This document shows, piece by piece, positions 15,667-56,200 of a stretch of 64,000 nt of DNA. A program made the translations under genes and the position numbers. This DNA comes from Buxus sempervirens (lineage: Eukaryota > Streptophyta > Magnoliopsida > Buxales > Buxaceae): assembly GCA_947561395.2 (NCBI GenBank), contig OX387184.1:21043687-21107686 (forward strand), in the 5' to 3' direction. Position 1 is the stretch's first letter. Each line of letters starts with the position of its first letter. Under the pieces are notes generated by a model. That model had not been told where the DNA came from. It searched no databases and saw only the letters and a list, made by a program, of their open reading frames with translations.

Positions 15667-16305
15667 TCACCCCTTATTTGGTACTTTACCTGCAAGCATG
15701 AAAGCTTTATAGGTCACCGTCCTCACCAAATTAGACCCACCCCAAGCCCTCTCAAACTCCTTAACCAGTCCTTCAGACAAGAGCTCCACACCTTGCTCCT
15801 CCGCCGTCGCAGTCGCCGACCATGACCTCATCCACTTAATGATACCGTCGAAGCTTGACTCCGTGGGCATGTCAAGCAACAATGGCTTCCCCTCGGACCC
15901 CAGACCAACACTCTCGAAAGGGAAAGGAAGCTTTCGATAGCCATCAAGAGCGCCCTGAACGTTCGGGTGAATAAAGGGAAGTGCGGCTTCACTGAAGCGT
16001 TCCATGACGGAGTCAAACTCCGGGTTAACACTCAGTTCGTTGTAAGCCCAGACAGCAATTAAACCTCCTGGGTTTCGCAGAAGGCGAGTAACCAGGGAGT
16101 AGAAGCTTGGGAGGTCGAACCAGTGTACGGCTGTTGCCACAGTCACCAAATCAACCGAACCTTCTCCCCCAAGCAATGTTAGAAGCTCGTCGTTGGAAAG
16201 GGAGAGTGGCGTGTGAATGTAGCGAACCCTGGGGTGTGGCCTGGCACGCTTTAGCTGCTCTTCACTCACGTCTGTGGCTATAACTTGGTCATAGTGCTCT
16301 GCAAT
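15667..16305 (-). CDS. SAM-dependent methyltransferase gene 1, exon 2
   Basis: This exon encodes 212 residues plus a TGA stop at 15667-15669. It starts at an AG acceptor (aaccag/ATTGCAGAG) in phase 0 and reads IAEHYDQVIATDVSEEQL, where the Asp of IATD is the acidic residue that grips the SAM ribose. Then follow VDLVTVATAVHWFDLPSFY (motif II region), LRNPGGLIAVWAYNEL (motif III region) and the family C-terminus TVTYKAFMLAGKVP. Joined to the exon at 25017-25166 it makes a protein of 262 residues, the usual size of the plant class I Methyltransf_11 family related to trans-aconitate methyltransferase-like proteins. Substrate is unknown; a soluble cytosolic enzyme is likely since no signal or membrane segment is seen. 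No stop or frameshift is visible. It is about 80 percent identical to gene 2 by eye. Confidence 0.85.
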   Translation of the reverse strand: MAEHYDQVIATDVSEEQLKRARPHPRVRYIHTPLSLSNDELLTLLGGEGSVDLVTVATAVHWFDLPSFYSLVTRLLRNPGGLIAVWAYNELSVNPEFDSVMERFSEAALPFIHPNVQGALDGYRKLPFPFESVGLGSEGKPLLLDMPTESSFDGIIKWMRSWSATATAEEQGVELLSEGLVKEFERAWGGSNLVRTVTYKAFMLAGKVPNKG

Positions 16306-17500
<1,195 letters not shown>

Positions 17501-27000: not shown

Positions 27001-28789
27001 TCAAACCTTTGGTATTTTACCAGCAAGCATGAAGGCTTTGTATGTCACAGTCCTAATCAAATTAGACCCACCCCAAGCACTCTCAAGCTCCTTGACCACT
27101 CCTTCAGACAAAAGCTCCACACCTCGCTCCTTCGCCTTCGTAACCGCCGACCATGACCTCAAAAAATTTATCAGTCCCTCGAAGCTTGACTCCTTAGGCA
27201 TGTCAAGCAACAATGGCTTCCCCTCGGACCCCAGACCAACGCTCTCAAAAGGGAAAGGAAGCGTTCGATAAGTATCGTGAACGTAGCGAATGTCGGGGTG
27301 AAAGAAGGGAAGTGCAGCTTCACTGAAGCGTTCCAAGGAGGAGTCAAACTCCGGGTTAACACTCAGGTTGTTGTAACCCCAGACAGCAATTAAACCTCCT
27401 GGGTTTCGCAGAAGGCGAGTCACCAGGGAGTAGAAGCTTGGCAGGTCAAACCAGTGCACGGCTTCAGCCGCAGTGACCAAATCTATGGAACCTTCACCTC
27501 CAAGCGATGTTAGAAGCTCGTCGTTGGAAAGTGAAAGTGGGGTGTGAATGTAGCGAACGCTGGGGTGTAGCGTGGCATGCTTTAGTTGCTCTTGGCTCAC
27601 GTCTGTGCCTATAACTTGGTCGTAGTGCTCTGCAAGCTGGTAAGAGAAATGAATATCTATTAGTCACTACACGTACGTTGTCACCAAAGTGGGATCGACG
27701 ACATGAACATATATTAAAATACTTAAAAGAAGGAAAGAAACACTGACCATGGGAAGCTCGAGTGACAAAATCCCACTCTTAACAACCAGAAGTTCATGCT
27801 GATAGGTGAGGGATGAAATTGTTTGCAATTTTAAGGTGCACCAGTTCTTGCTGTTGGAATGAAATGCTTATGCTTGGAGCATTACAAAAAGGAAAAAAGA
27901 AACAAAAAAGACAGTGACTACGAGATGCTTCACGTAGAAATATCCCATTCCAACAGCAGGAATCAATGCAACCTTGAATTGCATATGATTTCATCCCACT
28001 TTATATCTATATCAAATATAACACGAAGTGCCCCTCGGGAATCGTGCCAACTAAAATGTGCAAATTTCCAAAATAGCTCTTACACATCATTGTGAAGATT
28101 CATTAATAGAATGGTACAATAATCAAAACTGCCTCAACTTTTTAAAAACTTAATAATTAGTTTAAAACTATTACTCTTTCTTCATACGTGCAGTACTCTA
28201 CGTACATCCGGCTAGTAGGTGATGCGACTAATTAGTACCAAAACATCTCACGGATCGGTCACTAGATGTCTATGTTAACAATCAATGAACCTATAATTTT
28301 AAGCTTTTAGGTCCTTTGATCGTTACAAATATAAGATCTTCTAATTCGTAGTGGTAGATATTTAGGTTCTGTTTCAAATACAAAGATCTTCTAATTCGTA
28401 GTGGTCAATTTCGGGTTTTGATTCGTTGATTGATATTAAATTGTTGCAAGAATTTTGGGAAGAAGTGGTCAATATCGGGTTTTGATTCATTGAAAGGAGT
28501 TTTGGGATCATGATCATGGAAACATATGAGAAGTCAGGCCCCAACTGAAAATCTAAACAGGCAGTGGTGGGGGAATAGAGGAAGATGTACAGAGAAGGCA
28601 AGCACAAAAGAAGGAAATTAAGGGAGAGAGATGACTCACAGCAACTGCAGCTTGGCCATTTCCAGTGCCCACATCCCATGCCAAGGAGTGATGAGAGGTG
28701 TGAGCTGCAAGCATCTTGTACCATTCGCTCGGATACGTCGGCCGGGAGTCGAGGTACACGTCGGCTTGCTTGTCGAACAATCCGGCCAT
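27001..28789 (-). CDS. SAM-dependent methyltransferase gene 2 (two exons, intact)
   Basis: Exon 1 is 28640-28789, exon 2 is 27001-27636; the intron has GT/AG ends (gct/gtgagt, accag/cttgca) and phase 0. The protein has 261 residues, the normal family length. Motif I is D39-V-G-T-G-N-G45; the acidic residue after beta-2 is in HYDQVIGTD; AEAVHWFDLPSFY and LRNPGGLIAVWGYNNL follow; the C-terminus is TVTYKAFMLAGKIPKV. This is the plant Methyltransf_11 group of small class I enzymes that transfer a methyl group from S-adenosylmethionine; the substrate is not known. It looks soluble. It is the best preserved copy of a minus-strand tandem array (gene 1 downstream, broken copy 3 upstream). A MITE (27804-28001) and a Helitron (28006-28215) sit in its intron without touching splice sites. 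Confidence 0.88.
27804..28001. mobile_element. Short foldback MITE in the intron of gene 2
   Basis: Two arms of about 65 bp are inverted copies of each other: ggtgagggatgaaattgttt at the left against the reverse of gatttcatcccac at the right, sharing gctgttggaatg. The centre is A-rich. A clear target duplication was not found, so the superfamily is open. Confidence 0.6.
28006..28215 (+). mobile_element. Short non-autonomous Helitron (210 bp) in the intron of gene 2
   Basis: It begins TCTATATCAAATATAACACG (28006) after an A and ends CATCCGGCTAG (28215) before a T, with the hairpin acgtgcagtactctacgt just upstream of the end. It matches the plan of the Helitrons at 7086-7286 and 57095-57326. 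The insertion lies between splice sites and leaves both exons intact. Confidence 0.75.
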
Positions 28790-34740: not shown

Positions 34741-35204
34741 TAGTCTAAGTTTTATTATATTTGTTGTAATCAATGTAAAAGTTTCTTTTTAGAAACTTTC
34801 CTTTCTCTTTTTTTTCTGAGATTACAAATGAAAGATAGATGAGAGGGTGCCAACCTAGTTAGGATGTGCTCATACTATAGTGATGCAGCATTATTTGTGC
34901 AAGTGTATTATGTATAAGTATTGTTGCATTTGCAAAGTTGCATTTGTAAGAAATAATTAATTTAAATTTTTTTTAGAAAATTCTATCGCAATATGTGTAA
35001 GAAATTTTTGTGAATAATAATTATATTTTTTCAGAATTTTCTGTGTTTTTTTCCATTTTTGTCTATTTTCTATAGTTTTTTGCAAAAAAAAAATAGCTCA
35101 GGCCCGGGGGACCCCGCTTGGCCCGGCACGACTCAGTCTTAGCCTTGCCACGAGCTAGGTCGTACCTAGGGTATTGGGTAACAGCCTGCCAGGCATGAGC
35201 TAAA

Positions 35205-37685
35205 TGTGCGCACCCCCCGATTCCGGGTTTCGGGCCGCACGACGAGGTGCATGTAGAAGTGATGCTCGCCTCGGGACTGATTTTGGTTTGGAGTCGCCAC
35301 TGCCTGAGATGTGCAGGCAGACACAAAGGGGGCACCTATTCGGGCCTAATTAATCTGGTCTGCGGCTTATTAGAGCTCTGAGCAAGTTCTCGGTTACGTC
35401 TAGGGAAGCCCAAAGACACCCTAGCCCGCCCCGTCGATTGACAGGTCCCGTGGGTCTCCTTGGTCTGAGTCAACTTAGTTCTCACCCAATTTCTAAGCCA
35501 GCATGCACACTTATTTGGTCTGGTGGGGACCGTTGATGGTGTGGGTCCCCTTTTATTTGATTTTATCTTTTTATTTAGCGGAATGGGTCGGACCCGGGTC
35601 CCGTTGGAAGACCCGTGGGCTGCCATGGTTGGGCCTTGGGCCCAGCTGGGTTATTGGGTAACCCATTTGGTTATTTTATTATTTTATTTATTTACACTTT
35701 AGGTTTGGGCTTAGTGGGCTTGGATTTGGCCCATTAGCCAAGGGTCAAAGGGCCTGGGCCTGTTTATTGAAAACAGGCCTGGTACGGGCCAGTCAAAAGT
35801 GGGCCCCACAAGTGGGCAAAAGGGGGGTCTTGATGGGCCCATCTAGGCCCATAGTCCAAAAATGGGCTTGAGACAGCCCAAGTTGTTAAAGGGGTCGGTT
35901 CAGGCCGGTTTAGGCCGGATCAAGTCCAATTGGACCGAGAAATTACATTTTTTAAGTTACATTCATATTGGACCGTATTTTCTATACGGTCCACCTTGCC
36001 CGTGGATGAATTACGGTCTTCCTCGCCCGTGAAGAAAATACGGTCCCGCCCGGACCGGCCTGAGTTTACGGGCGCAACTAGTTTTGCACTTTTGCAGCCG
36101 ATTCTTTTCGGGATCAATCCCGTAGCCTTCTTAGGAGGTTTCTGCAATTGAGGTTGAAGTTTCCAGCTTCTCCAGATTCTGTGCTTGCTTCATTTGGTTC
36201 AAAATGTCATTTTTCTTCTTCCTTCTGTCCCCTTTTTTTTTTTATTTGGAAAACCACACCTTCCTATAGTGATTCATGATTAGTCTTAAGGGAAGAAAAG
36301 GGAAAATTACAGGGGATAGTTCATGGAGGATGAATTCTTCTTGTCCTTCCAAATGGATCCATTGAATGGATCTTATAACCTTTTCATTCTTTTTCTTTGG
36401 ATTTCTTCTTTCTCTTTTATATGGACATTAAAACTTGTATAGAAGAATCTTATCAACAACAAACAAAAGGATTAGTAGACAATGTAATAAAGCAACAGAA
36501 ATTTAATACTCTTTAAATAAAGAAGTTTATGTATGTATTGAAATGAAATTTAAAAGAAAACATTACCACACTCTTAGCTCTTTGTTTAGATGATCTTGAG
36601 GTCCTCCGAGAATTTTGGCAGCGCTTCCGCGTCTTCTGAAAATTCTAGAATTGGTTTTGACAGGGGTTTGATAGGTTGTTTATGTTTACAAGATGAAAAG
36701 AGGGAATTAGGACATGGTTTTGGTAAGATAGGGGTATTTTAGGAATAAAAAAGGTTTGGGTTGAGGGGGTGGCAGCATTTGGGCAGGGGTTGGCCGTGAG
36801 AATATCAGGGGAGGAAGAAGAGGTCGGCCAAGGGATCAGGCTTGTTGAAATGAGGGGGGTGGCCTCTCTATTTATAGGCAAAATTTTCGTGCCCGTATTT
36901 GAAGTACGGGCGTGCCTTGCCCGTACTTCAAGTACGGGCGTGCCTTGCCCGTAATTCAAATACGGGCGAAAAACGAATATTTGCAATTATCGCAGATTCG
37001 GCCGTACGGGACGCGTGTCCCGCCGTACGGCGCCGCGTGTCTTCTTCCAGAAGCTTGCCCGTATTTCAAATACGGGCATGCCCTGCCCGTAATTGAAATA
37101 CGGTCCAGCACGTTTTTAAAATGTTTGGATTTCAAGCCTTTATTCAATTTGGTTTATTTAAAGATTTTTATCCGATTTTTTGATTATTTTATTATAAAAA
37201 CGAGATTCTTTTATTAAAATATTATTAAAAAATAAAGATATTTTATTAAATGATTATTTTATTTATTTAACTCATTTATTCTGCTTTTTGCTGTTGTTTT
37301 GCCACATGGGCAGCTTTCTTTAAAACTTCAACTGCCCATAACTTCTCCGTCTGATGTCCGATTTTAGCAAATTTGATGTCGTTGGAATCAGCTCGGAACA
37401 TAATATCCACTGGGATCAAATTGGGCAGTTGAATTGGGGTCGAGCAAAAAGTCAACTTTCGCTCCCCCAAAAGTTTGACCGGTTCATAACTTTCTTATCC
37501 GGACCCCGATTCTGGCAAACTCAGTTGCGTTAGAACCGTGTCGAAATGCTCTTTTCAATGAGAGTAAGTTTGATGGCCAATTCTCTTTGGATCAAAAAGT
37601 CAATTTTTGACCCCCTCAGGGTTTGACTTTTAATTTGTCTTTTCATTTTTCTTTATTTTGGGGGTGCAAAAATCAGGTGTCTACA
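35205..37685 (-). repeat. 3' LTR of the 13-kb element
   Basis: Nearly identical to 45751-48230. On the minus strand it starts tgtagacacctgatttttgc and ends ggggggtgcgcaca. It has a TATA box (36868-36876) and the palindrome array (about 36888-37110). Confidence 0.92.
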
Positions 37686-38112
37686 GCTGCCCCTCTTTGC
37701 CGGAGTCACCTTGGGGATGAACGGCAAAGAATAAAAAGAACCTTATTTTTGCACTTTGCATTTCTGTCGACATGATCAACAAGCTTAAGTCCTCTTGATT
37801 TTCGAAGCAGCGGAAATTGGTTTCCACTCAGTTTTTTGGAGCTTGCTCACCCACACTTCGCGGGCTTCCTGGAGCAACCCCTGATTGGTTTTCACCTAGA
37901 TCTCGAAGCTTGCTCACCCACACTTCGCGGGTTTCTTGGAGCAATTTCTTGATTTTAATTTTAATTAAAAGGAATGGGATTGGACTTAAGCTTACCAACC
38001 TGTTTCGGCATCGATGCAAGATGCTCAACAATGTTCTTTTCTTTTTGTTTGTTCCATTAAAGCTTTTAGGTGATTTCCAATTTGTGGCTTTCTCTTATCT
38101 TTCAGCAGATTT

Positions 38113-38148
<36 letters not shown>

Positions 38149-38692
38149 GGTTAGAGGCCAGATGAGGGTTGATAATGGTGGTTTGGGAATGAAGGAGGCG
38201 GGGGGGGGGGGGGGGGGGGGGAGGCTGCCTTACTGCTGTTTGTCATCCGGAGGACCTCACACACCTAACCTATTCTATTTACAAAAGTGGTAAATCAAAA
38301 ATTACAAAATGGCCCATTTGCCCAGAACTTCTTTATTCTGCTTTCTTCTTCAAGTCTTGGGAACTTCACCGCCCTTTCTTCATGGCATGGCCTTCTCAGC
38401 TTGGGGAAGAGTTCCTCTGTCGGCTCCTCTCGTGATAAGGTAGAGGTTCCCTGGTTTGGAATGACTCTACTGGGGATTGGTGGGAACCTCTACCGCTTTT
38501 TGCTTCTTTCACTTGGTTAGGAGCTTCTGCTGAGTATGGGCATTCTGTGGGGATGAGGGATCCTTGCCTTGGCTTTCTACTTGGCCTTTTCCAGTCTTGT
38601 TTGTTTCTCTGGCTTCAAGGCGTTTCTTGATGACCTGCAAAGATCTCACAAAGCGGTGAGGTATCTAAAATCAAGAAGATAAGCAGCAGAGT

Positions 38693-38740
<48 letters not shown>

Positions 38741-40253
38741 AAGTGATCTTAAAAGAAAAGGCAGGACCAGCGATCACGGTGATTTGCCTTGTTAGCTCGA
38801 AGTGTTTTGGGACAGTGTGCTTGACACGTATTCCCATGAAATTCTTGACTTAGGCCAGCAAGGGTTTAAAAGTTGAGAGGTATTTCAAGGAATGTCCCCC
38901 CTTTCCCAGGTTTTGGTTTCTCTCCTTTTTGGGGCAATTTAAAGATTTGGCAACTGAGGGTTCTTTCCTGGGTTAGTGTCTGTTCCAGTTTGAGGGTTCT
39001 TGGCCAACTTCTTGCACATCATGTCTTATAGATCAAAGAGGTCTTGAAATTAGGACGAAACGTCAGCTTGGTTTTAAGTCTGAGAAATGAAAGGTGGCAA
39101 GGCTCAAAATCTTTTCATTCTCAGGTTTTACTTTGTGTCTGGCCGAATCTCGTTCTTCCTCTTTAGATTCCTTCATCACAAATCTGCACAAATCTGATTG
39201 CCACATCTTCTGTAATCAGAAAAGACTTTCTGTTGGGACAAAATGAAGGCCGAGGTTTTAGTTTATGAAAGAAAGGGAATATGGCTCAAAGTTCTTTCTT
39301 TTGAATGGGTTGAGTCATATTTTACCCTTGGTCTTTGACAATGTCTGCTTTACTTTCTTTTCTTCTCTTTTTGAGGCCTTTTGCTTTTTCCTTTATTTTT
39401 CCTTTTTGCCTAGGGGCCGATTTTTGTTTTTTGATTTGCTTGGCATGCCCCAGTGTGCATTCTGATTTTTTTCTTTTCTTTTCTTTGCTTTTGCATACTT
39501 GCCTCATTTCTTCTTTCTTTCTTCTTTGTCAAGCACCATATTTGGGGTATTTGACTCAATGGGTTAGAAAAGAAGAATGTTAGGCTCAAAGGATTTGACT
39601 AAGGATATGACTTTGGAAATTTGGGATGTGAAGCAAAAATGGCCTTTCATCCTTTTACAGAAGTTGTGACAACTTTATTGGATTATTTCATGCAAACTCA
39701 TTCAGGAATCAGATTCATCCTTTTTTTTATTTCCTTTTTAGCTTTGCCCCAGTGTGGGGTGGCTAGACACAACACAGGTATTTAAATAATACGATCAGGC
39801 TCAAAGTGTTTGACTAGCGATTCTTAAAATTCAGGATGGATGAAGGATGGCCTCTCATCCTTTCTCAAAGACATAATTGCTCAAGTCGGCCTCGGCCCTT
39901 ATCTGGTTTAGACATTTTCTCTCTTTTCTTTTCATCTTTTTCCTTTCCAGGGTTATTCTGCCCTAGTGCAAGGATGGATTTGGGAGAAAAATCAAAGCAT
40001 AGATCAGGAAATGACTGCCTTTGGCTCAGTCAAGGTTCTCATGGGACAGTATCCTGCACCCAGCTGAAAACACCTTTGAGCTACTTGGCATTTTTCCATG
40101 ATCATAGTCTTGCCAAAGGGTATGGTCTCAGAACAATGTCATCACCGACCAAACACTTGCATTTTTTCTTCTTCTTCTTTTTTTTTTTTTTTTTATTATG
40201 CAGAATTAAAAGGTATTTACATAAAAAAGCATTAAAGTAAATTAAACCTCCCT
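37686..40253 (-). other. Non-coding 3' region of the 13-kb element
   Basis: No pol domain is visible on either strand. Features: the purine tract at 37686-37701; a duplicated phrase with gcttgctcacccacacttcg at about 37841 and 37908; T runs at 38119-38144 and 38698-38738; and a G run near 38199-38221. Repeated wording (ggctcaaagt, ttttgacaatg-like) suggests old internal duplications. Confidence 0.6.
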
Positions 40254-42614
40254 TCAAAGGCCGGCCTTGCAGATTGCCATAGGCATAGCGCTCCAGTTCC
40301 TGAGTGGTGTCTTGACTTCAACCACCTCATCTGGTTCAATTTCACCAACTGTGATCATATTGACGGATTCATCTGGATCACTTTCGTCTGACACCGCCGC
40401 ATCTTCTATGTCTTCATCCGGATCCTCCTCCTCTGATGAAGTATCATCTAAATCCTCACCCTGACTTTCATATGGGTCAGGTAGATTCCTGAGCTCAGGA
40501 GTAGATGGTGGCATTCCTTCTACTGTGACACAAGGGAGGCCGAGCCACACGCGCATCTCAGACGAGATAGATTCCGGCTCAGATTCGGGTGACAGTGGAT
40601 CCGTAAGGGAATAGAGATTGGGCTCCAAGGTGGCAGACGTACAGTCAGGAGGCCCTTCAACAAACCTCTGAGGGGGTACCCTTGAGCTATCCACCGATGA
40701 ATCTTGGGCAGGTGACCTGCCTTGATACCAGAACCCTGCAGAGCTACCTGCTCCTTCTTTGGCTAGAGGCGATGGAGAATCACTGATCCATCCACAATTG
40801 TTTTGGCCTTGTGGTCCTGTGACCTCTTCACTACTTTGAGGATCATTCTCAAGTGCACAGATGTATGCATCCAAGCCCTTTTCAGTCTTAGATTCCTTAA
40901 TGGGAGTAGAGGGCATGTCTCCAACCGCAGCCAATGATTTGGTTCCCTCCAAGAGATACACCCTTACTTTCTGGCCTGGCTGTCCAATCAGCACTGACGG
41001 GTCAAATTGCCCCTGGCTTTTGTCACAATTGCTCACAAGGTTTACTGGCCCACTAGTAGATGCCTTGTTATGATCCGGAAGGGGATTAGTCTGGACCCCT
41101 ACTGGAGGAGTTGTTGCTGGGGGATCGACGGAAATTTGCTTATTGTCGATCAAATCTTGTATATCATGCCTCAAATCCCAGCAATAGTTAGTATGATGAC
41201 CAGGAGCTCCCATGTGATATTCGCAGCGCACATTAGGATTGTAATTGCGACTATTAGTCGGCTGGTGGGTTGGCTCCTTTTTCTGCAAATATCCCTTTTT
41301 CAACAAGGTTGGTAGCAACTCTGACACTGAGTAAGGGAGGATAGTAAACACTCTATTCATTCTTGCCAGGTGTTCTTCTCTGGTCAATCTTGGCTTTCTT
41401 GTAGCTTGTGTCTCCTGTCCAGGGTTCTGGTTATTAGGTGCTGACAAGTGGTAAGGTCTGTTTTGCTGGACGTAGTTAACACTCTCGTCCTCTTTCTTCT
41501 TTTCCGGACCTCTCCCACTAATAGGGCCTCTTCTCTGCTCAGGGAATCCTGTAACTCTGCCGGACTTAACTCCGTCTTCTATTCTGTCTGCCACAACCAC
41601 CAGGTCTGCGAAACTCGCAGCAAACTGTCCCAGCAGCAGTGTATAGTATGGTTGCCCCAATGTTGAGATGAATAGGGTTACCATCTCTTTTTCCAACATG
41701 GGTGGCTGAACCATCGCAGCCATCTCTCGCCATCTCTTGGCATACTCACGAATGGACTCCGTGCTTTTCTTGACCATCTTTTGTAGTTCCATCCGAGTGG
41801 GCAAGACTTCGGTGTTGAACTTGAAATGCTCTAGGAAAGTACTTGCCAAGTCATCCCATGTCCTGATTCGACTTCTGTCTAGACTGGCGAACCATTTCTG
41901 TGCTGATCCCGTCAATGAGCGTTGGAAGAATTGGATCATGATCCTCTCATCATGCGCATACTGGCACATGTCTCCATAGTACGCTCTGAGGTGTAACAGT
42001 GGATCACCACTTCCATCAAATTTTACGAGATCTGGACATTTAAACTTTGGCGGAAACTGTAAATCAGGGAAGAACCCTAGCCTATCCAGTGAGGCTTCCT
42101 TTGGCACAGAACTTCGGTTCGCATTCCGTATATGTTCTTTTAAGGCCTGCACATCGGCTTGCATCGATTCTTGTGCCCGATACCAATCTTCTATTTCATG
42201 CCCCATTTCCTGTGGCATGGCAGGGGCTGCTGGAATTCTCAGCTGTTGCTCTGCTTGGACAGGTAGTGGTTGAGGAACTGGCTGTTCTGGTGGTTGCAAA
42301 TTCATCTGTGGAATAGCAGGCGGTGGCTGCTCTGGCATGACTGGTAAAGGCTGAGGAGCCAAGTGCTGTGGTGGCGGTACTCGTGGCTCCTGGGGAGGTA
42401 CCGGCTGTTGCGGAGGTATTGGCAACTGTTGCTGCGGCTGTATAATCTGTGGTGGTGCTTGCAGCCTTTCCATTCGCTGCATCATGTTTGCCATCATGGC
42501 CGTCATGTGAGCCATTTGCTGGTTAATTCCTGTGATTACTGGATGATCTTCCAGCTTTTCTTGCTCCTGAGGAGGTGGAGGCAGTGCTTGTTCAAGTCCT
42601 TCAGCAGGATCCAT
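40254..42614 (-). CDS. gag: Gag protein of the 13-kb Tat/Ogre-like element (786 aa)
   Basis: Gag builds the virus-like particle in which the element's RNA is copied. Residues 1-160 are low-complexity, rich in Pro and Gln, with a Met-rich coiled segment (MAHMTAMMANMMQRMERL). Residues about 190-350 are a retrotransposon gag domain (FKCPDLVKFDGSGDPLLHLR, IQFFQRSLTGSAQKWFASLD). At 464-478 lies CEYHMGAPGHHTNYC followed by WDLRHDIQDLID, the modified zinc knuckle typical of Tat/Ogre gag. The last 100 residues are very acidic. The frame is open throughout. The ATG at 42612-42614 is followed at once by the low-complexity region. No protease follows, so processing would need an autonomous partner. Confidence 0.85.
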   Translation of the reverse strand: MDPAEGLEQALPPPPQEQEKLEDHPVITGINQQMAHMTAMMANMMQRMERLQAPPQIIQPQQQLPIPPQQPVPPQEPRVPPPQHLAPQPLPVMPEQPPPAIPQMNLQPPEQPVPQPLPVQAEQQLRIPAAPAMPQEMGHEIEDWYRAQESMQADVQALKEHIRNANRSSVPKEASLDRLGFFPDLQFPPKFKCPDLVKFDGSGDPLLHLRAYYGDMCQYAHDERIMIQFFQRSLTGSAQKWFASLDRSRIRTWDDLASTFLEHFKFNTEVLPTRMELQKMVKKSTESIREYAKRWREMAAMVQPPMLEKEMVTLFISTLGQPYYTLLLGQFAASFADLVVVADRIEDGVKSGRVTGFPEQRRGPISGRGPEKKKEDESVNYVQQNRPYHLSAPNNQNPGQETQATRKPRLTREEHLARMNRVFTILPYSVSELLPTLLKKGYLQKKEPTHQPTNSRNYNPNVRCEYHMGAPGHHTNYCWDLRHDIQDLIDNKQISVDPPATTPPVGVQTNPLPDHNKASTSGPVNLVSNCDKSQGQFDPSVLIGQPGQKVRVYLLEGTKSLAAVGDMPSTPIKESKTEKGLDAYICALENDPQSSEEVTGPQGQNNCGWISDSPSPLAKEGAGSSAGFWYQGRSPAQDSSVDSSRVPPQRFVEGPPDCTSATLEPNLYSLTDPLSPESEPESISSEMRVWLGLPCVTVEGMPPSTPELRNLPDPYESQGEDLDDTSSEEEDPDEDIEDAAVSDESDPDESVNMITVGEIEPDEVVEVKTPLRNWSAMPMAICKAGL

Positions 42615-42879
42615 CTGGAGTTTTCTTCTTGAACGTAGGAGGTATGGGCTGCGATACGCAATCTTGGTACCTGTTGAACAAAAAAGACAAAAATTAGTAT
42701 AAAGAATTCATATTTCATCAAAATATAATGCATGTTGATGTATGCCAATGACTTTTTGATTTGATTAATTTCCACTTAATTGATTTTTCCTTTACTTTGA
42801 AACTTTTATTCAACAACCAAGGAGGATAATTTGATCTCTTTTTAGCCGCCATTCGGAGACAAGGGGGGAGTCCCTAAGA

Positions 42880-43813
42880 ATAATCTCCTTTTCACCGCCA
42901 CTTCGGAGGTAAGGAAAGAAGATTTCTGAGTACGATTTCCCTCAACCGCCACTTCGGAGGTTGACCGCCACTTCGGAGGTAAGGAAAGGAGATTTTTGAG
43001 AAGGATTTCCCTTAACCGCCACTTCGGAGGTTGACCGCCACTTCGGAGGTAAGGAAAAGGACTGTTACTTCGGAAGTTAGCCTCCACTTCGGAGGAAAGA
43101 TCCCTTTTAACCGCCACTTCGGAGGTAAAGGGAGAGAAGATCCTTGGAAATTATTTCCTTCAACCGCCACTTCGGAGGTTGACCGCCACTTCGGAGGTAA
43201 GGAAATAATCCTTGGAAAAGGTTTCCTTCAACCGCCACTTCGGAGGTTGACCGCCACTTCGGAGGTAAGGAAAGAAGATTTCTGAGAATGATTTCCCTCA
43301 ACCGCCACTTCGGAGGTTGACCGCCACTTCGGAGGTAAGGAAAGAAGATTTCTGAGAACGATTTCCCTCAACCGCCACTTCGGAGGTTGACCGCCACTTC
43401 GGAGGTAAGGAAAGAAAATTTCTGAGAATGATTTCCCTCAACCGCCACTTCGGAGGTAAGGAAAGAAGATTTCTGAGAATGATTTCCCTCAACCGCTACT
43501 TCGGAGGTTGACCACCACTTCAGAGGTAAGGAAAGAAAATTTCTGAGAATGATTTCCCTCAACCGCCACTTCGGAGGTTGACCATCACTTCGGAGGTAAG
43601 GAAAGAAAATTTCTGAGAATGATTTCCCTCAACCGCCACTTCGGAGGTTGACCGCCACTTCGGAGGTAAGGAAAGAAAATTTCTGAGAATGATTTCCCTC
43701 AACCGCCACTTCGGAGGTTGACCATCACTTCGGAGGTAAGGAAAGAAAATTTCTGAGAATGATTTCCCTCAACCGCCACTTCGGAGGTTGACCGCCACTT
43801 CGGAGGTAAGGAA
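42880..43813 (-). repeat. 70-bp minisatellite in the element's leader, about 13 units
   Basis: Each full unit holds two 17-bp cores accgccacttcggaggt, then a spacer with aaggaaagaaaatttctgag and gatttccctca. Units at 43231-43813 are almost regular; those at 42880-43230 vary in length and a few have a single core. It lies between primer site and gag. Open frames read across it only because the unit is rich in sense codons; they are not genes. Confidence 0.92.
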
Positions 43814-45730
43814 ATAATCTTTGGGTTTGGAAATCACAGGAGCCGATTTTGATTTCGGAAATGTGGAGCGGTGATTTCCAAAGGATCAGTTTGGAGAATT
43901 CCATAGAATGAGGGGTTTTTGGATGGTAGTAACACAAAGTATTGATTTCCATCAGGATCTGGGAAACTGCAAGAGTTGATTTCCCAATTTGATTGATTTT
44001 CTTAAGATTTTTTCTTTCTTTGCCCGATGGCCATTAGCAAAAATCAGACTTTTTTCCTTGACTTTTTTTTTTTTTTTTTTTTTTTTTCACTTCCTTATTT
44101 TGGGCTATTTCACAGCCAATTGAAACTTGGCTTAAGCACAGGGGATTGAAACCATTTTTCGCCCTAAGGCAAATTTAATGTACACTTAGAGGCAATTCAA
44201 ATTTTTGATTGATTTTTTTTTGTTTTTTTTTTTTTTGTTTTTTTTGTTTTTTTTGTTTTTTTTGTTTTTTTGTTTTTTTTGTTTTTTTTTTTTTTTTTTG
44301 AAATGAGTTAATCAGGCATGCTTATGCAGATGATCTTGAAGTGTGTGCACTTGATGCATGAAGATGCGTACACAAAATTAGGACCAACATTACCATTCTG
44401 CATAATTAAAAAATGTGTGCATAGTCCTAAAAAGGTTGGTGCCCCTCAAGGCACGACTTCTAGACATACTTGTGTATGGAAGCACATTTGAGTCCAGATC
44501 AGTCTTCTTTCATCTGTTCTTTCTTCCATCTTCTCTTTCAGGTGTCAGACCAAAAGAATTAATAATTTGCCAGCAAGGGCTAAAATTACATGATATTCAA
44601 AATCTGAAAAATTTCATCTTAAGGGCTTTTGAGAACCCAAAAGAAGGATACAAATTTGCTTCAAGTCAGGTAGGCTGGAATCCTGGATCTAGGGTTTTAT
44701 GCCCCTGTTCTGATCTGGCCTATTTCTGCCGGATTTTCTGATCTTGTCGGCTTTCATTTGCTCAAAAGGTTGACCTGGACTCAGAGTGCTCCCTGCGGAC
44801 TCAATGGGTCAAGGCCCATGGTTCACAGGACTCAATGCATGGATCTGGGGTGGCTTCCCTGATCAAAATTTGGTTGGCTTCCTAAATTAGGGCTGAGGCA
44901 GCCCAAGGTCTAGGGTTCACTCAATTTAATGCAAAAGAGCGGGGGAATGCCCCTGATGGACTCTTGGATTTTAAATTGATTTTATTTTCCAATATTCACA
45001 TCCACATCCATATCCATGCTGCATTCACAAAGCCTTGGTTTATCAGAAACAATAGGTGGGGAAAGGATACCCAGCCCGAGACATTTGCCTACAAGGGTCT
45101 GAGCCAAGTACTAGACCCTCGCGTACCACAGCATGAAGCCAGTGGTGCTAAGGAATCCAGAAACCTGGGGAGATGGGTTTACCCTGCTTTCCCCGGCAAG
45201 CCACGGGAGCGTAGAGCTAATACCATCCCAAAAGTAAGTTCATCGTTTGAGAAGGGTGGCTGCTAGAGAGATCTAGGTTTTGGTGAAGAAGAGCAGCATT
45301 TCATCAAGTTATTCAAAGCGGATCATTCATGCAGACCCCCTCGTGCATGTCACCCCATGCAGTTTAAAAGATCATTCACGGTGTGGTGAAGTGCTCGTGT
45401 GCAGTGGGGCAAAGTGCTGTGTCTATTTGGGTGATTCTCGGATGATGAGCTGATAAAGGGTTCCTTAATGTCACTTTTATAGTGAGAGTACAGAACAACA
45501 TGCAATACGATGTTTGGGTGGATCCCCAGGTAAGTGGAGGGTCACAGGGGACCGCTTAAATTCCACTTTCCTTAGGCAATTATCTCGTCCTTGTGACAGG
45601 ATCCCCCAATATCACGTAATTGCAAGAGTTCCATACCTCACTAAGTTTGGACAAGAAGTATTTCCTAAATCTGCTCATATCCCCCTATGTTGACTCATTT
45701 CCTGACCAAGGTCCAATTGGGTTGAGGGGT
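43814..45730 (-). other. Rest of the 5' leader of the 13-kb element
   Basis: About 1.9 kb between minisatellite and primer site with no coding part. A T run lies at 44065-44087 and a tract of gtttttttt units at 44218-44299. Short duplicated phrases of the interior (acttgatgcatgaag, caaggtctagggttc) are seen. Confidence 0.55.
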
Positions 45731-45747
45731 CCCCAGCAGAGTCGCCA
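45731..45747 (-). promoter_or_regulatory. Primer binding site of the 13-kb element
   Basis: The minus strand reads tggcgactctgctgggg three bases inside the LTR at 45751. This is the primer-site wording I associate with Tat/Ogre elements, usually matched to an arginine tRNA; the tRNA match is from memory. It fixes the element's direction. Confidence 0.7.
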
Positions 45748-45750
45748 AGC

Positions 45751-48230
45751 TGTGCGCACCCCCCGATTCCGGGTTTCGGGCCGCACGACAAGGTGCATGT
45801 AGAAGTGATGCTCGCCTCGGGACTGATTTTGGTTTGGAGTCGCCACTGCCTGAGATGTGCAGGCAGACACAAAGGGGGCACCTATTCGGGCCTAATTAAT
45901 CTGGTCTGCGGCTTATTAGAGCTCTGAGCAAGTTCTCGGTTACGTCTAGGGAAGCCCAAAGACACCCTAGCCCGCCCCGTCGATTGACAGGTCCCGTGGG
46001 TCTCCTTGGTCTGAGTCAACTTAGTTCTCACCCAATTTCTAAGCCAGCATGCACACTTATTTGGTCTGGTGGGGACCGTTGATGGTGTGGGTCCCCTTTT
46101 ATTTGATTTTATCTTTTTATTTAGCGGAATGGGTCGGACCCGGGTCCCGTTGGAAGACCCGTGGGCTGCCATGGTTGGGCCTTGGGCCCAGCTGGGTTAT
46201 TGGGTAACCCATTTGGTTATTTTATTATTTTATTTATTTACACTTTAGGTTTGGGCTTAGTGGGCTTGGATTTGGCCCATTAGCCAAGGGTCAAAGGGCC
46301 TGGGCCTGTTTATTGAAAACAGGCCTGGTACGGGCCAGTCAAAAGTGGGCCCCACAAGTGGGCAAAAGGGGGGTCTTGATGGGCCCATCTAGGCCCATAG
46401 TCCAAAAATGGGCTTGAGACAGCCCAAGTTGTTAAAGGGGTCGGTTCAGGCCGGTTTAGGCCGGATCAAGTCCAATTGGACCGAGAAATTACATTTTTTA
46501 AGTTACATTCATATTGGACCGTATTTTCTATACGGTCCACCTTGCCCGTGGATGAATTACGGTCTTCCTCGCCCGTGAAGAAAATACGGTCCCGCCCGGA
46601 CCGGCCTGAGTTTACGGGCGCAACTAGTTTTGCACTTTTGCAGCCGATTCTTTTCGGGATCAATCCCGTAGCCTTCTTAGGAGGTTTCTGCAATTGAGGT
46701 TGAAGTTTCCAGCTTCTCCAGATTCTGTGCTTGCTTCATTTGGTTCAAAATGTCATTTTTCTTCTTCCTTCTGTCCCCTTTTTTTTTTTATTTGGAAAAC
46801 CACACCTTCCTATAGTGATTCATGATTAGTCTTAAGGGAAGAAAAGGGAAAATTACAGGGGATAGTTCATGGAGGATGAATTCTTCTTGTCCTTCCAAAT
46901 GGATCCATTGAATGGATCTTATAACCTTTTCATTCTTTTTCTTTGGATTTCTTCTTTCTCTTTTATATGGACATTAAAACTTGTATAGAAGAATCTTATC
47001 AACAACAAACAAAAGGATTAGTAGACAATGTAATAAAGCAACAGAAATTTAATACTCTTTAAATAAAGAAGTTTATGTATGTATTGAAATGAAATTTAAA
47101 AGAAAACATTACCACACTCTTAGCTCTTTGTTTAGATGATCTTGAGGTCCTCCGAGAATTTTGGCAGCGCTTCCGCGTCTTCTGAAAATTCTAGAATTGG
47201 TTTTGACAGGGGTTTGATAGGTTGTTTATGTTTACAAGATGAAAAGAGGGAATTAGGACATGGTTTTGGTAAGATAGGGGTATTTTAGGAATAAAAAAGG
47301 TTTGGGTTGAGGGGTGGCAGCATTTGGGCAGGGGTTGGCCGTGAGAATATCAGGGGAGGAAGAAGAGGTCGGCCAAGGGATCAGGCTTGTTGAAATGAGG
47401 GGGGTGGCCTCTCTATTTATAGGCAAAATTTTCGTGCCCGTATTTGAAGTACGGGCGTGCCTTGCCCGTACTTCAAGTACGGGCGTGCCTTGCCCGTAAT
47501 TCAAATACGGGCGAAAAACGAATATTTGCAATTATCGCAGATTCGGCCGTACGGGACGCGTGTCCCGCCGTACGGCGCCGCGTGTCTTCTTCCAGAAGCT
47601 TGCCCGTATTTCAAATACGGGCATGCCCTGCCCGTAATTGAAATACGGTCCAGCACGTTTTTAAAATGTTTGGATTTCAAACCTTTATTCAATTTGGTTT
47701 ATTTAAAGATTTTTATCCGATTTTTTGATTATTTTATTATAAAAACGAGATTCTTTTATTAAAATATTATTAAAAAATAAAGATATTTTATTAAATGATT
47801 ATTTTATTTATTTAACTCATTTATTCTGCTTTTTGCTGTTGTTTTGCCACATGGGCAGCTTTCTTTAAAACTTCAACTGCCCATAACTTCTCCGTCTGAT
47901 GTCCGATTTTAGCAAATTTGATGTCGTTGGAATCAGCTCGGAACATAATATCCACTGGGATCAAATTGGGCAGTTGAATTGGGGTCGAGCAAAAAGTCAA
48001 CTTTCGCTCCCCCAAAAGTTTGACCGGTTCATAACTTTCTTATCCGGACCCCGATTCTTGCAAACTCAGTTGCGTTAGAACCGTGTCGAAATGCTCTTTT
48101 CAATGAGAGTAAGTTTGATGGCCAATTCTCTTTGGATCAAAAAGTCAATTTTTGACCCCCTCAGGGTTTGACTTTTAATTTGTCTTTTCATTTTTCTTTA
48201 TTTTTGGGGTGCAAAAATCAGGTGTCTACA
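45751..48230 (-). repeat. 5' LTR of the 13-kb element
   Basis: Next to the primer site, hence the promoter-bearing copy. It holds a TATA box (47413-47421, minus strand tataaatag). Just upstream in the sense of transcription lie five gcccgta-type palindromes (47432-47515 and 47598-47650). More such palindromes occur further on in the transcribed part (about 46515-46605). Confidence 0.92.
47413..47421 (-). promoter_or_regulatory. TATA box in the 5' LTR
   Basis: The minus strand reads cctataaatagagagg. The same box lies at 36868-36876 in the other LTR and at matching places in three related LTRs (10341, 21694, 51341). Confidence 0.6.
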
Positions 48231-48284
48231 CTAAACATGCCTCTGTTGTGCGGGGCCGGCCCATTAAGCAACCCTAGCTTTAGG

Positions 48285-50508: not shown

Positions 50509-50936
50509 GTTGAGAGTGCGAATGATGTGGAAAGTGAGAAGCCATGTCATACTACATCAGCTCAGTGCATATTGTCACAACCCGCCAAGTTGGAGCATGC
50601 TAAGCACCATGCAAACACACATTTGGATGCCTAGATGGAAGTGGTGCCTAGAGACTTCTGGAGATTTCTAGGGAATTCTACATAACTGTAAATACAAAAG
50701 AAGTGGGGAATTCTCTAGAAGATTCTCTAGAAGATGAAGGAAGCTTCTCCAAGAGAAGTGGGGTATTCTCTAGAAGATTCTCTAGAAAATGAAGGAAGAT
50801 TCTAGAAGAAGCCTTGTATGTAAATATCTAGATACTTACCTAGAGGATTCTAGAGGCTAAACTCCACCATTGGATAGTTTTAATCCCCACCATCCATTGA
50901 GGAGGTAGAAGGCCTATATAAAGGGGTAAAGCCCTC

Positions 50937-52577
50937 TGTAGACACCCCAAATTGCACTACAAAAATGAGAAAATAATTGAAAACATGTAATTGGGACTTA
51001 AAACAGGTCAAAATGCATAAAATTTAATCATTTAAGCATTGCTCATATTGTATTTGCGGGCTAGTCGCGCCCGAATTTTATATACGGACATACCGTGCCC
51101 GTAATAAGAATGCGGACACCACCTGCCCGCAATGCATATACAGGCACAGGAGATTTGTGCGAATTTGATCTTTGCTCGATTTCTGAGCCTTATCTACATC
51201 CAAATATATCTTTAGATGAGCGAATTTATTTATTTATTCATCCGAATTATCCTTGTTGGTCATGGATGGGCATTATCCTTATTTTCAATCCAATCTGGTG
51301 GATCACAGTATATCCCTCTGGACCAGCCCCTAGGTTTGCCTATAAATAGAGGTGAGATCCTCAAGCAAAAGGCCACGAAAATTTGAAGTCAAAGGAGCTC
51401 CAAGTGAAGAGAGTAATCCCTGCTGCTCTGCTTGTTCAATCCAGGTAAGTCCCTCTTCCCTTTGATTTTTTATCTTCAATTCTAGAAATAATAGGATCTT
51501 CTCATTTTTCTAGAATAAGGCCTTTGATTGTGTTTGTATACCCAAACCTATCTCCAAATACCTCAAGAATCCTCTCTAGCCGTAAAACGTGAAGAGAGAG
51601 CTAAGGGAAAAGAGAACAGGTGAATCCGTAGGATAGACCCCCATGTGCTCTAATCTGTGAGATGTGGCTGCTTTTGATATCCTGCTAATGTTTTAATGAT
51701 CTTGTGATTGAATCTGAATGAATCCTATGAATCTATGATGTTTATAGCATGAGATCCCCATTTTTTTTTAAATTTGGATTTTTCACATCTTTGCACCTAC
51801 AGCATTGTTTTCTTGATTTTTGTGATTTTAGGCTAAGATCCTAGATCTATCATGATCTATATGATAGATCTGGATTCAAAAGCTTGAAATTAATTTCTAG
51901 GGTTTCATGATGTGGTTTTTGAGTCCTTTTTCACTTTTGAGAGAAGACCCTACGGTCTAAGTTCTCCCCTTTTGATGTTCTTCATTAACGTGGGTATTTT
52001 TGGTTTTGATTTCTTGATCTAATGTGAAATATGGGCTATACCTATGTCCTAAACTGTTCAAGTTCAATTCTGCAATATTTTATAAAAATCATATATTTCA
52101 AGATTTCCAGAGTTTAACTTGAATCCAGATTTTTGAATTTTTCACTTTAGATTGGTTTTATTTGATTTTATCTCAATTTTATTTTAATCATGAAATCCTA
52201 TGAATGGTATGATCATATTTGAAAATTCTGAATCAATCAGGCTATTCGTATGAAAAAACCATACACTTTTGTCTTTTTGTGATTTTTTATGATTTTTGTA
52301 GCAAGCCTTCTTTATTTTTAACATGAACAAAGCCTGGCAACCACCTTGTGTGGATGAATAGGGGTGCCTAACACCTTCCCCTGTTCATAACTTAATCCCC
52401 TTACCCATCTCTAGTTGTTTTTTAATAGGGTTATTTTTACCCTAAATTTGCCTTTTTGTGCTTATTTGAGATTTTGGTGTCCATTCATACCTAAACAGAA
52501 TGGTGGCGACTCTTTGTTTTTAACCAATCCCGTGTGATGATTAGGAAGTCATTGAATTGATTTTTCCATGTCTCACA
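50937..52577 (+). mobile_element. Solo Tat/Ogre-like LTR inside the chromovirus 5' LTR
   Basis: It starts tgtagacaccccaaattgca and ends ccatgtctcaca, flanked by a perfect 5-bp duplication ccctc (50932-50936 and 52578-52582). The chromovirus 3' LTR shows the empty site (gagccctcatttgtaac, 56026-56042). It contains palindromes (51055-51150), a TATA box (tataaataga, 51341-51350) and a short leader intron (51445-51513). Same family as 19053-22114. Confidence 0.9.
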
Positions 52578-52768
52578 CCCTCATTTGTAACCATCCAGAA
52601 AACATTGAGTGAAATACAAGTTCTCCTAGTGTGTTCCTCTCTCCCTCTCTTAAGTAATCTTTCTTGTTAGTTTAGGCTTACGTAGCACGTCGAAAGGGTT
52701 GAGTGTCTAAGTGCCACACGGATTAAGGCAAGGGAATTTCTAAGCCCGATACAGTTGGTATCGGAGCC

Positions 52769-53767
52769 TTGGTTCGAGTTCTCAAGAAATTGATAGTATG
52801 GCAAACATTTCGGAAGTCACCAACGTTGGTACCGAATGTTCGGGGCGAGAGAAGGAATCCTAATGTTGGCAAGGGGCAGAAGGATAAGTCAAGGGACATC
52901 CTATCTGCTATGGAAGCAAGGCTTGCAAGGGTGGAGCTAGCCATGGCAGATAGCCAGGACAAGGTTGAGATGATGGACCAACACATCGAGGGACTCGAGA
53001 ATGGGCATGAAGAGTTCCAAGGGGAGACGCAAGGTGGCCTCAACGCTGTGTCCGAGATGGTTCAAGCTCAGGTGGATGCTCTCAAGGACTTAGTCCGGGC
53101 TGAGATTGCTGCCATTAGAGAAGAAATGAAGGAAATTAAAGGAGATTGGTCATTGTGCAAATTGGCCGTCACTCAAGATACGATCACCTCTCACTCCTTT
53201 TCTAAAGTTGACATTCCTAGGCCCAAGAGCTATAGGGGATCTAGAAATGCAAGGGAGCTTGACAACTTCCTATGGAGCCTTGAACAATACTTCGAGGCAA
53301 CGGACATCCATGAGGAAGACAAGAAGATCAAGACGGCCCCTCTCTTCTTAGATGATGCTGCTACCTTATGGTGGAGAAGGAGGCACATTGATATTAAGCA
53401 ACCAGTGTGCACCATGGAGACATGGGATGACTTCAAGCGAGAGATCAAGAAGCAGTTCTATCCTGAGAACTCCGAGCATGAAGCAAGGGCCAGGCTACGA
53501 TGTCTCTCCTACAAGAACACTATTCGGGAGTATGTGAAGGAGTTCTTTGAGTTGCTACTCGAAATTCCTGACATGACTAAAAAGGAGTCCCTCTTCACAT
53601 TCGTCGATGGTCTACAATCATGGGCAAAAATCGAAGTGCAACGACGGAGTCCCACGGATCTTGCAACGGCTATATCTATTGTGGAATCCTTAACAGAATT
53701 TAAGAAAGGTGAGTCCTCTAAACCTAAGTTCCAAAAATTTAAAGGGAAAAATGTGAGAGACAATTAG
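52769..53767 (+). pseudogene. gag: Chromovirus gag region
   Basis: A 332-residue frame: an N-terminal coiled coil (MEARLARVELAMADSQDKVE and on), then a retrotransposon gag domain (DNFLWSLEQYFEATDIHEED, AATLWWRRRH, FKREIKKQFYPENSEHEARA, YVKEFFELLLEIPDM). The zinc knuckle [13 protein letters not shown] follows at about 54076-54115. It belongs to a broken element and is treated as a fossil. Confidence 0.8.
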
Positions 53768-54070
53768 AAAAAAAAATAGAAAGAATCAAAAGAGACAAGA
53801 AAAAAAATATTTCTAACCTCAAAGATAAAAATTAGTCCGAACGAAAGAAGTTGTGATAATAAAAAATTAGAATCACCAAAAAATATTTGGCAAATATTAA
53901 AAAGAAGAAACACCCGATTAATACGTAAATGGAACTATTTTATAAAATTTTTAATTGAAAGGATATACATAGATGCACAGCCCAAGGAAGGACACAAACC
54001 ACCTTTCCACAAAGCAAGAAAGTTCAACAAAGAAAGGAAGCCTGGTGACAAACCTAGAATCACAAATCAC

Positions 54071-55672
54071 ATGCTTCTTTGTGATGGCCCCCACTTTGCT
54101 AAGGATTGCCCGAAGAGATTGAAGCTATCAGCTCTAATCCGAGATGATGAGGAGGAGACCCAACAAGATGAGACCAAGATGGGATCTCTACGCTTACTCA
54201 ATGCCATCAAGGCTAAGGTGGACATAGAAAAGGTCACGAAGAAGGGACAGATGTACGTCGAGGCCAAGGTCTGTGGACTTGACACATGTGCCTTAGTTGA
54301 CACGGGTGCATCGCACAACTTCATTGAAGTTAATGAGGCCAAAAGGCTTGGCCTCCAATACAAGGAAGAATAAGGATGGCTTAAGGCGGTGAACTCGAAG
54401 GTGGAGCCTATCTATGGAGTAGCACGAGGAGTCAAATTGCACATTGGAAATTGGCATGGCCAAGTGGACTTCTCAGTTGTGCCTATGGATGACTATCCTA
54501 TTGTCTTGGGAATGGAGTTCTTGGATAAGGTACGAGCTTTCCCCATCCCCTTTGCAGAAGCCATGTGCATTATGGGAGATGGAAATGCATGCATGGTACC
54601 ACTTGCCCAAGAAACTTCTATCAAAGCCAAGACATTGTCAGCCATGGAGCTATCCAAAGGAGTAAAGAAAAATGAACCTACATTCCTAGCTACTTTGAAG
54701 CTTAATGAAGACTCCTCACTCACTAAGGAAGATGTGCCAACACAAGAAGAGGAAGTACTAAAGGAGTATGCAGACACAATGCCTCATGAACTTCCTAAAA
54801 AGCTACCACCTAAAAGAGAAGTGGACCATAAGATAGAACTTCAAGAAGGTGCCAAGATCCCGGCCATGGCACCATATCACATGGCTCCAATGGAGCTAGA
54901 GGAGCTCTACTTGAGGCACTATGTAAGTGCCAACCAAAGAGATTGGGCCAAGTTGTTGGATGTTGCCCAATTTTCCTACAACCTACAGAAAAGTGAGGTG
55001 ACGGATCGAAGTCCTTTTGAGTTAGCTACAAGGCAACAACCATTGACACCCAACACTCTTGCATCGGGATACACAGGAAAGAGCCCTGCAGCATTCATGT
55101 TCGCCAAAGGATGGCAGGAACAGTCAGACATGGCCAAGGCATACTTAGCCAAAGCCGCTAAGAAGATGAAGAAGTGGGCAGATACCAAAAGACGACATAT
55201 GGAGTACAAGGAAGGAGACCTTGTCCTACTTAAGCTACTACCACACCAAGTCAAGGCATTCCGGAAATTTCACAAGGGCTTGGTGTAGAGATATGAAGGA
55301 CCATTTCCCATCACTAGAAGAGTTAGCAAGGTCTCATATCAACTCGAGTTGCCTGCTCGCCTACACCGCCTCCACCCCATCTTCCACGTAAGTCTATTAA
55401 AGCCCTACCATGGAGATGCAGAGGATCTAAGCCAAAATAAGTCAAAAAGGGCACCAGCAACTTTGATGGTCTCTCACGACAAGGAGGTTGACACCATCCT
55501 TGCCCATAGAGTCATACCAAGGCGAGGTATCATTCCAAGTCATGTCGAGTACTTGGTCAAGTGGAAGGGACAGCCCGATAGCGAAGCAAGTTAGGAGAAA
55601 GAAGAGCACTTGTGGCAGTTCAAAGACAAAATCACTTCATTTCTAGAAGAAGCTGCGACGAGGGCGTCGCCA
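54071..55672 (+). pseudogene. pol: Chromovirus protease, integrase end and chromodomain remnants
   Basis: The protease part carries the aspartic motif [13 protein letters not shown]. Later parts carry the integrase end (SPFELATRQQPLTPNTLASG, LARLHRLHPIFHVSLLKPYH type wording) and a chromodomain (EYLVKWKGQPDSEASWE-like, about 55545-55600). Chromodomains steer such elements to heterochromatin. Broken; the middle of pol is not visible. Confidence 0.75.
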
Positions 55673-55689
55673 GATTAGGTGGGGGAGGA

Positions 55690-56200
55690 TGTCACGACCT
55701 GCCAAGTTGGAGCACGCTAAGCACCACACAGACACACATTTGGATGCCTAGATGGAAGTGGTGCCTAGAGACTTCTAGAGATTTCTAGGGAATTCTACAT
55801 AACTATAAATACAAGAGAAGTGGGGAATTCTCTAGAAGATGAGGGAAGCTTCTCCAAGAGAAGTGGGGTATTCTCTAGAAGATGAGGGAAGCTTCTAGAA
55901 GAAGCCTTATATGTAAATATCTAGATACTTACCTAGAGGATTCTAGAGGGCTAACCTCCACCATTGGATAGTTTTAATCCCCACCGTCCATTAAGGATGT
56001 GGAAGGCCTATATAAAGGGGTGGAGCCCTCATTTGTAACTATCCAAAAAACATTGAGTGAAATACAAGTTCTCCTAGTGTGGTCCTCTCTCCCTCTCTTG
56101 AGTAATCTTTCTTGTTAGTTTAGGCTTACTTAGCACGTCAAAAGGGTTGAGTGTCTAAGTGCCACACAGGTTAAGGCAAGGGAATTTCTAAGCCATGACA
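55690..56200 (+). repeat. 3' LTR of the chromovirus
   Basis: A 511-bp LTR running tgtcacgacctgccaagttg to ctaagccatgaca. It matches 50573-52753 once the nested solo LTR is left out. It contains short tandem phrases with attctctagaaga. Confidence 0.85.

Follow-up and report, generated by a model that had tools for sequence, protein, structure and literature searches.

The window analyzed here is a 64,000-nucleotide stretch of the genome of Buxus sempervirens (C4:21043687-21107686; the genome searched throughout is this assembly of 676.5 Mb in 247 contigs). At window positions 35205-48230 it holds a long terminal repeat (LTR) retrotransposon that has a long, selected gag frame, lacks detectable pol, and is probably mobilized in trans by Ogre-type, pol-bearing relatives in the same genome, hereafter called helpers. 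The element is read on the minus strand, which corrects the direction in the first-pass annotation, an initial description of this DNA.

A structurally complete element with gag as its long frame

The element is bounded by the two copies of the target site duplication CTAAA, to which no strand applies (35200-35204 on the left, 48231-48235 on the right). Its interior of 8065 nt lies between a 5' LTR of 2480 nt (45751-48230) and a 3' LTR of 2481 nt (35205-37685), both, like every feature of the element given below, on the minus strand. The primer binding site (PBS; TGGCGACTCTGCTGGGGA, 45730-45747) follows the 5' LTR and the polypurine tract (PPT; AAAGAGGGGCAGC, 37686-37698) precedes the 3' LTR, each with the same sequence in the pol-bearing relatives. 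The two LTRs are 99.8% identical over 2481 columns, with four substitutions and one indel, and at the plant substitution rate of 0.7-1.3e-8 per site and year this corresponds to an insertion age of roughly 60-115 thousand years. The first-pass view of a complete and young element, with LTRs, target duplication, PBS, PPT, and a gag frame of 786 residues, holds in all these parts.

The first 714 nt of the leader (45037-45750) are 84% identical to the leader of helper copy L068. Immediately upstream of gag lies a tandem array (42894-43807) with a period of ~70 bp and 27 copies of a 17-nt motif. This motif, an imperfect palindrome present in 10-30 repeats in the leader before gag, recurs in 28 of 30 related gag loci; it was not seen in the helper slices read, where another tandem repeat occupies the same place. 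A hairpin formed by the array as a packaging signal was considered and kept as an idea only, since pairs of units have no compensatory changes apart from a single common variant. Long runs of A (on the element strand) are present in both untranslated regions, at 38117-38145, 38696-38738, and 44213-44299.

The long open frame has 817 codons, with 786 residues counted from the first methionine (40254-42614, stop included). It matches Pfam Retrotrans_gag (capsid-type; E 2e-12) and contains a zinc-knuckle-like stretch, CxxHxGxPGHxxxxC, named by eye. It is more than a plain Gag: its last ~245 residues (40257-40994, approximately residues 544-789 of the 789-residue query used in the genome search) form a C-terminal tail that is missing in a shorter gag-only form described below. 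Downstream of the stop, the 3' region (37699-40253) has no detected coding domains, and its end resembles the helper 3' region.

Nine interior frames reach at least 100 amino acids, one being gag, and none of the eight others has a Pfam match at a cut-off of E 0.1. When pieces of helper pol were compared with the interior in six frames (tblastn), no enzyme domain was matched below E 0.5. The two matches below this value both fall within the gag frame, one at the end of the nucleocapsid region, after the zinc-knuckle-like part (40944-41099, E 1e-14), and the other over the last 39 residues (40257-40373, E 0.002). The search can be trusted to work because the same pieces recover a second helper slice, L063, at 88% identity. 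Together, the eight Pfam-negative frames and the tblastn result leave the element without a detectable protease, reverse transcriptase (RT), RNase H, or integrase, and rule out a pol hidden in other frames; nor is there among the frames of the element a counterpart of the plant mobile domain frame that lies upstream of gag in the helper. The first-pass claim that the element encodes only Gag therefore stands as to the absence of detected pol domains and needs amendment as to Gag itself, which is extended by the tail. Assignment to the LARD class, which has no coding capacity, is ruled out by the long selected gag frame.

A young family with a selected Gag

A genome search with the LTR, in which the best 40 of 7063 candidates were scored and which is thereby biased to the closest LTRs, gave ten LTR pairs, all at the spacing of gag-only elements (9.1-10.5 kb). 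Five of these enclose a gag match, and all seven that were measured differ by just 0.05-0.57% over ~2.1 kb; two same-strand matches on C12 that lie 31 kb apart were not counted as a pair. In the corresponding gag search, the best 57 of 12723 candidates were scored, and the distance to the PPT was checked for 17 of 58 gag rows, comprising all 16 on C1, C3, and C4 and one on C12 outside the PPT listing. An exact PPT is found 2.5-2.6 kb downstream of gag in seven of the 16 and at 10.8 kb in one, with none in the remaining eight. The element in the window is one copy of a young, multi-copy gag-only family; among the closest LTRs scored, the outcome that the first pass named as refuting its view, pol in every other copy with these LTRs, did not appear.

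To gauge selection on Gag, 11 stop-free, nearly full-length frames were taken from the 30 gag loci. The median ratio of nonsynonymous to synonymous substitution (dN/dS) over their 55 pairs is 0.148 (range 0.105-0.273), with the lowest values, 0.03-0.06, in segments that cover residues 175-394 and with them the capsid domain; the tail itself is also conserved, at 0.15-0.29 in the segments that cover it. The mean difference is 0.044 at second codon positions, 0.160 at fourfold sites, and 0.110 in the 1.5 kb of noncoding DNA downstream, the last computed without L059 and L060, whose downstream DNA aligns poorly to the 3' region of the window element. Transversions alone give the same order, and in five non-overlapping pairs equality of second-position and fourfold divergence was rejected each time (Fisher p from 1e-7 to 9e-15). 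In most of the 30 gag copies, the frame ends at the same stop and is followed by the same noncoding 3' region, and the downstream DNA of 28 of them (the window's own copy, L031, counted) aligns to that of the window element with 6-15% difference. Because this noncoding region is common to the 28 loci, the divergence of gag arose after pol was lost. Thus, Gag has been kept under purifying selection after pol loss. This backs the first-pass suggestion of a selected role for Gag, a role that would most likely be the gathering of the element's own RNA.

These results bear on two alternatives. The first is an accident: one Ogre with an internal deletion, mobilized on one or a few occasions, its gag not being selected as part of a pol-less lineage. 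The absence of both pol and the helper's upstream frame is what a deletion derivative would display, but the many copies of the same layout, with the exact PPT at a constant distance from gag in seven of 16, a Gag clade that lies far from helper Gag, and a dN/dS of 0.15 speak against it. The family copies and the dN/dS already contradict such an origin, which we find barely credible, and a single accident is ruled out by the same-layout LTR pairs, the further gag copies, and the low dN/dS. The second is a pure parasite whose own Gag is dispensable, its RNA being packaged by helper Gag and its frame persisting through recency or a constraint at the RNA level. This would suit the 19 gag loci, out of 30, that lack a stop-free, full-length frame, as well as the leader, a likely packaging region that the helper shares. 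However, amino acid sites are far better conserved than both fourfold sites and adjacent noncoding DNA, by transversions alone too, and an RNA-level constraint would not spare silent sites. As Gag is under selection, a parasite that does without it is disfavored, and we regard this explanation as very unlikely.

A probable Ogre-type helper with matching cis sites

The PPT/LTR junction of the element occurs at 1943 sites in the genome with at most one mismatch and the PBS junction at 441 exact sites; reversed control sequences of both junctions have zero sites. Pairing of PBS and PPT was drawn from the first 100 sites of each, which cover C1, C3, and part of C4. Among the sites listed there are 31 pairs, 12 at 6.9-9.9 kb, 15 at 13.5-14.5 kb, and four longer; five copies of the 13.5-14.5 kb class and three of the 6.9-9.9 kb class were partly read for their content. 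The longer class carries pol. Slice L063 has gag, with two in-frame stops; L061, from one copy, has a single open frame of 1166 codons that runs from the end of gag into RT; and L064, with one in-frame stop, encodes an RNase H, a second RNase H (RVT_3, E 4e-18), and an integrase, the second RNase H being placed between the other two. In L074, a 499-codon frame upstream of gag matches the plant mobile domain PF10536 (E 9.5e-21). A weak G-patch match, below the Pfam curated cut-off (E 0.003), lies between the protease region and RT in L061; G-patch domains occur in some retroviral proteases.

Ogre and Retand are marked by an additional RNase H placed between the first one and integrase, and in 57% of Ogre elements gag is reported to be preceded by a sense frame that encodes a plant mobile domain (PMC6317226). 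The position of the second RNase H and the upstream plant mobile domain frame are the reasons why the ~14-kb class is, from its sequence, best called Ogre, even though L061 does not show the intron-like gap described for Ogre. The placement of the window element in the Tat/Ogre lineage, made at first pass, gains its backing from the same two features. A separate LTR search for helpers, in which the best 40 of 5196 candidates were scored, yielded two LTR pairs of helper size, identical over 607 and 592 nt; these were picked for equal scores and are candidate helpers by size.

The two kinds of element agree closely in the parts needed in cis. The PBS and the PPT/LTR junction are exact matches and the LTR termini are identical. 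Identity to the helper is 84% over the first 726 nt of the leader, 83% over 963 nt at the LTR start (promoter signals not mapped), and 75-82% over ~530 nt at the LTR ends; before the 3' LTR it is 91% over the last 104 nt of the 3' region and 82% over 111 nt. The Gags have diverged much further, being 50% identical over 513 columns (BLASTP) and 56.5% over 464 aligned codons, where 64 of 102 fourfold sites differ, and in a tree the gag-only Gags form a clade far from helper Gag. The silent sites of the two Gags are near saturation, and the leader and LTRs differ by 16-25%. Cis parts much closer than the Gags are what would result if the two kinds of element had exchanged LTR and leader stretches, and in that case their RNAs would have shared particles.

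The same comparison weighs on another possibility, that a different, unsampled pol-bearing family mobilizes the gag-only family instead of the 14-kb Ogre class. The small share of candidates scored leaves room for it, as does a third gag class at C4:9320443 (L065), but the 14-kb class agrees exactly with the gag-only family in its PBS and PPT junction patterns and resembles it over a long part of the leader, and we consider a different helper unlikely. In its own right, the L065 slice (C4:9323243-9326443) combines the same PBS and PPT with a capsid-type Gag that is 48% identical to that of the window element, and a second nucleocapsid-like stretch follows gag in a separate frame.

The tail of the gag frame has a history that also leads to the helper. 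The genome search recovered Gag in two forms, one of 789 residues as in the window element and one matching residues 1-543 only. In the shorter form (slices L066 and L067), ~850 nt of the 3' part of gag are missing and the 3' region is kept at 89-90%; the Gag tree places short forms between long ones, at a support that is modest (0.75-0.85). The last 39 residues of the gag frame match residues 794-833 of the L061 frame (42.5% identity, E 0.002, tblastn), which form the helper's linker, located after the protease/G-patch region and before RT, and five further loci repeat this match (E 3e-4 to 8e-3). Between the end of the nucleocapsid and the tail match, ~740 helper residues, the protease region included, are replaced by ~190 unmatched residues. 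This suggests an in-frame loss of the protease, after which the remaining frame ends before RT; by this comparison, the gag frame is a remodelled one.

A genome scan with Pfam RVT_1 and RVT_3 was also tried as a route to the helper and given up, its best-scoring matches looking mostly like long interspersed nuclear elements (LINEs); it was the pairing of PBS and PPT by distance that found the helper. Among the best 150 of 15542 candidates, RVT_1 matches of LINE-like length (~750-775 nt, with frames often of 1217-1240 codons) crowd, by eye, into a single narrow interval on each large contig represented, 14 in all (e.g., C10:3.8-4.4 Mb, C1:30.2-30.8 Mb, C14:30.4-31.0 Mb), which makes this family a candidate centromere-seeking LINE. 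The window itself holds a second, older retroelement at 50573-56194, with LTR pieces at 50573-50936 and 52578-52746 that are 88-95% like 55690-56194; ~1.6 kb of other DNA splits its 5' LTR, and its gag and protease are followed directly by an integrase-like end (by eye), RT and RNase H being missing. Elsewhere in the window, two related frames at 15667-16392 and 27001-27663 (minus strand), ~86% alike in DNA and methyltransferase-like by eye, are an apparent local duplication.

Probable mobilization in trans and its known counterparts

We put at about 85% the probability that the element, with its own Gag and with pol received in trans from the Ogre helper, is a recent copy in a gag-only family (TR-GAG or semi-autonomous) of Ogre/Tat LTR retrotransposons. 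Expression, co-packaging, and the use of helper enzymes would, judging from sequence, proceed as follows. The element would be transcribed from its own LTR and translate its own Gag. This protein most likely packages the RNA of the element, and the helper would supply protease, RT, both RNases H, and integrase in trans. These enzymes could act on the element because the PBS, PPT, LTR ends, and leader are common to both.

Several observations pull the other way. In a tree of LTR ends, helper and gag-only elements form two separate clades with support of 1.000, each sample being biased to its own query; the interleaving of their LTRs that would be a direct sign of recent exchange was not seen in this tree, and the separate clades argue against such exchange. 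As the Gags share only 50-57%, their co-assembly is not assured. Divergence at the fourfold sites of gag exceeds that of the noncoding DNA close by, so that dN/dS against silent sites may overstate constraint, and the ratio of second-position to noncoding divergence is ~0.4; the 19 gag loci that lack a stop-free, full-length frame belong here too. Mobilization in trans is in this case a deduction from sequence, and a closer pol-bearing relative may exist because the best 40-57 of thousands of candidates were scored.

What the helper might gain is a further matter. In one proposal, the gag-only family gives surplus Gag to helper particles, the helper's Gag and Pol being one frame, and both partners benefit. 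The single open frame of L061 from the end of gag into RT points in this direction, both size classes are common (12 of gag-only and 15 of helper size among the 31 pairs listed), and the same model has been proposed for the wheat pair Cereba/Quinta (PMC11302176). On the other hand, with Gags only 50-57% identical, co-assembly in such a mutualism would rest on proposal, and the intron between GAG-PROT and RT published for Ogre (PMC6317226) may already regulate an excess of Gag. We hold mutual benefit to be possible, if tentative. A more elaborate version, which we think rather doubtful, is a long-lived split system of gag-only and continuous-gag-pol-frame Ogre lineages with separate Gags, in which co-packaged RNAs would swap LTR and leader stretches and so keep their cis sites in common, much of the Gag would come from the gag-only family, and the new tail, taken from the pre-RT linker, would join its shell to helper Pol. 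Exchange would leave the pattern seen here, with the silent sites of Gag near saturation and the leader and LTRs differing by 16-25%.

Partnerships of gag-only elements and helpers are already known in other plants, and the window element belongs to a known class. TR-GAG elements, with LTRs, a single gag frame, and no pol, are an established class (PMC8704663, PMC6022998), and one of them, ATCOPIA63, transposes in Arabidopsis ddm1 (PMC8704663). The window element has the same makeup, and the first-pass assignment to this class is supported by its LTRs, target duplication, PBS, PPT, Gag domain, lack of pol, and recent multi-copy family; the difference is that ATCOPIA63 is a Copia element, and the family in the window is a Gypsy one from the Ogre/Tat lineage. 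The class is said to have been originally described by Chaparro et al. in 2015.

The closest published pair is RLG_Quinta/RLG_Cereba of wheat (PMC11302176), where a gag-only element likewise has an extra C-terminal part in frame and a pol-bearing partner in the genome, with no difference in PBS or LTR termini, LTRs that are conserved in part, and a Gag far more diverged than its flanks. The features by which that work recognizes a pair, an identical PBS, identical LTR termini and PPT, and a conserved part of the LTR, are all present here. However, Cereba is a centromeric chromovirus with a CR-domain integrase, whereas the partner here belongs to the Ogre/Tat lineage, has two RNases H, and gives no match to a chromodomain. 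For DUF1, the additional part of Quinta, that paper gives no known origin, whereas the tail end here matches the protease-RT linker of the partner.

Other comparisons place the family more broadly. RLG_Sabrina_SA, and RLG_WHAM with RLG_Wilma, are semi-autonomous high-copy Gypsy elements of wheat that lack RT and integrase and have a pol-bearing partner, but protease is kept with Gag there and none is detected here (PMC9744471). The helper resembles Ogre in having an extra RNase H, located between the first one and integrase, as well as an upstream sense frame with a plant mobile domain; it differs in that the two polyprotein frames described for Ogre are split by an intron-like stretch and L061 is one open frame (PMC6317226, PMC6431247), and the gag-only element departs further in having neither the upstream frame nor pol. 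BARE-2 is also a non-autonomous partner of an autonomous element, with the opposite loss, a broken gag with the rest kept (PMC9744471, PMC8704663). A partial search of the literature found no gag-only pair of the Ogre lineage, and its absence from print is not claimed. Among soybean elements, the SNRE/SARE pair reportedly shows LTR swapping.

Structure alone is the usual basis for cataloguing gag-only elements. In this case, one genome yields the family, a pol-bearing relative with matching cis sites, and selection on the amino acid sequence of Gag after the loss of pol. The role of Gag in an element without pol thereby becomes directly testable, and this in the Ogre lineage as against Copia elements or chromoviruses.

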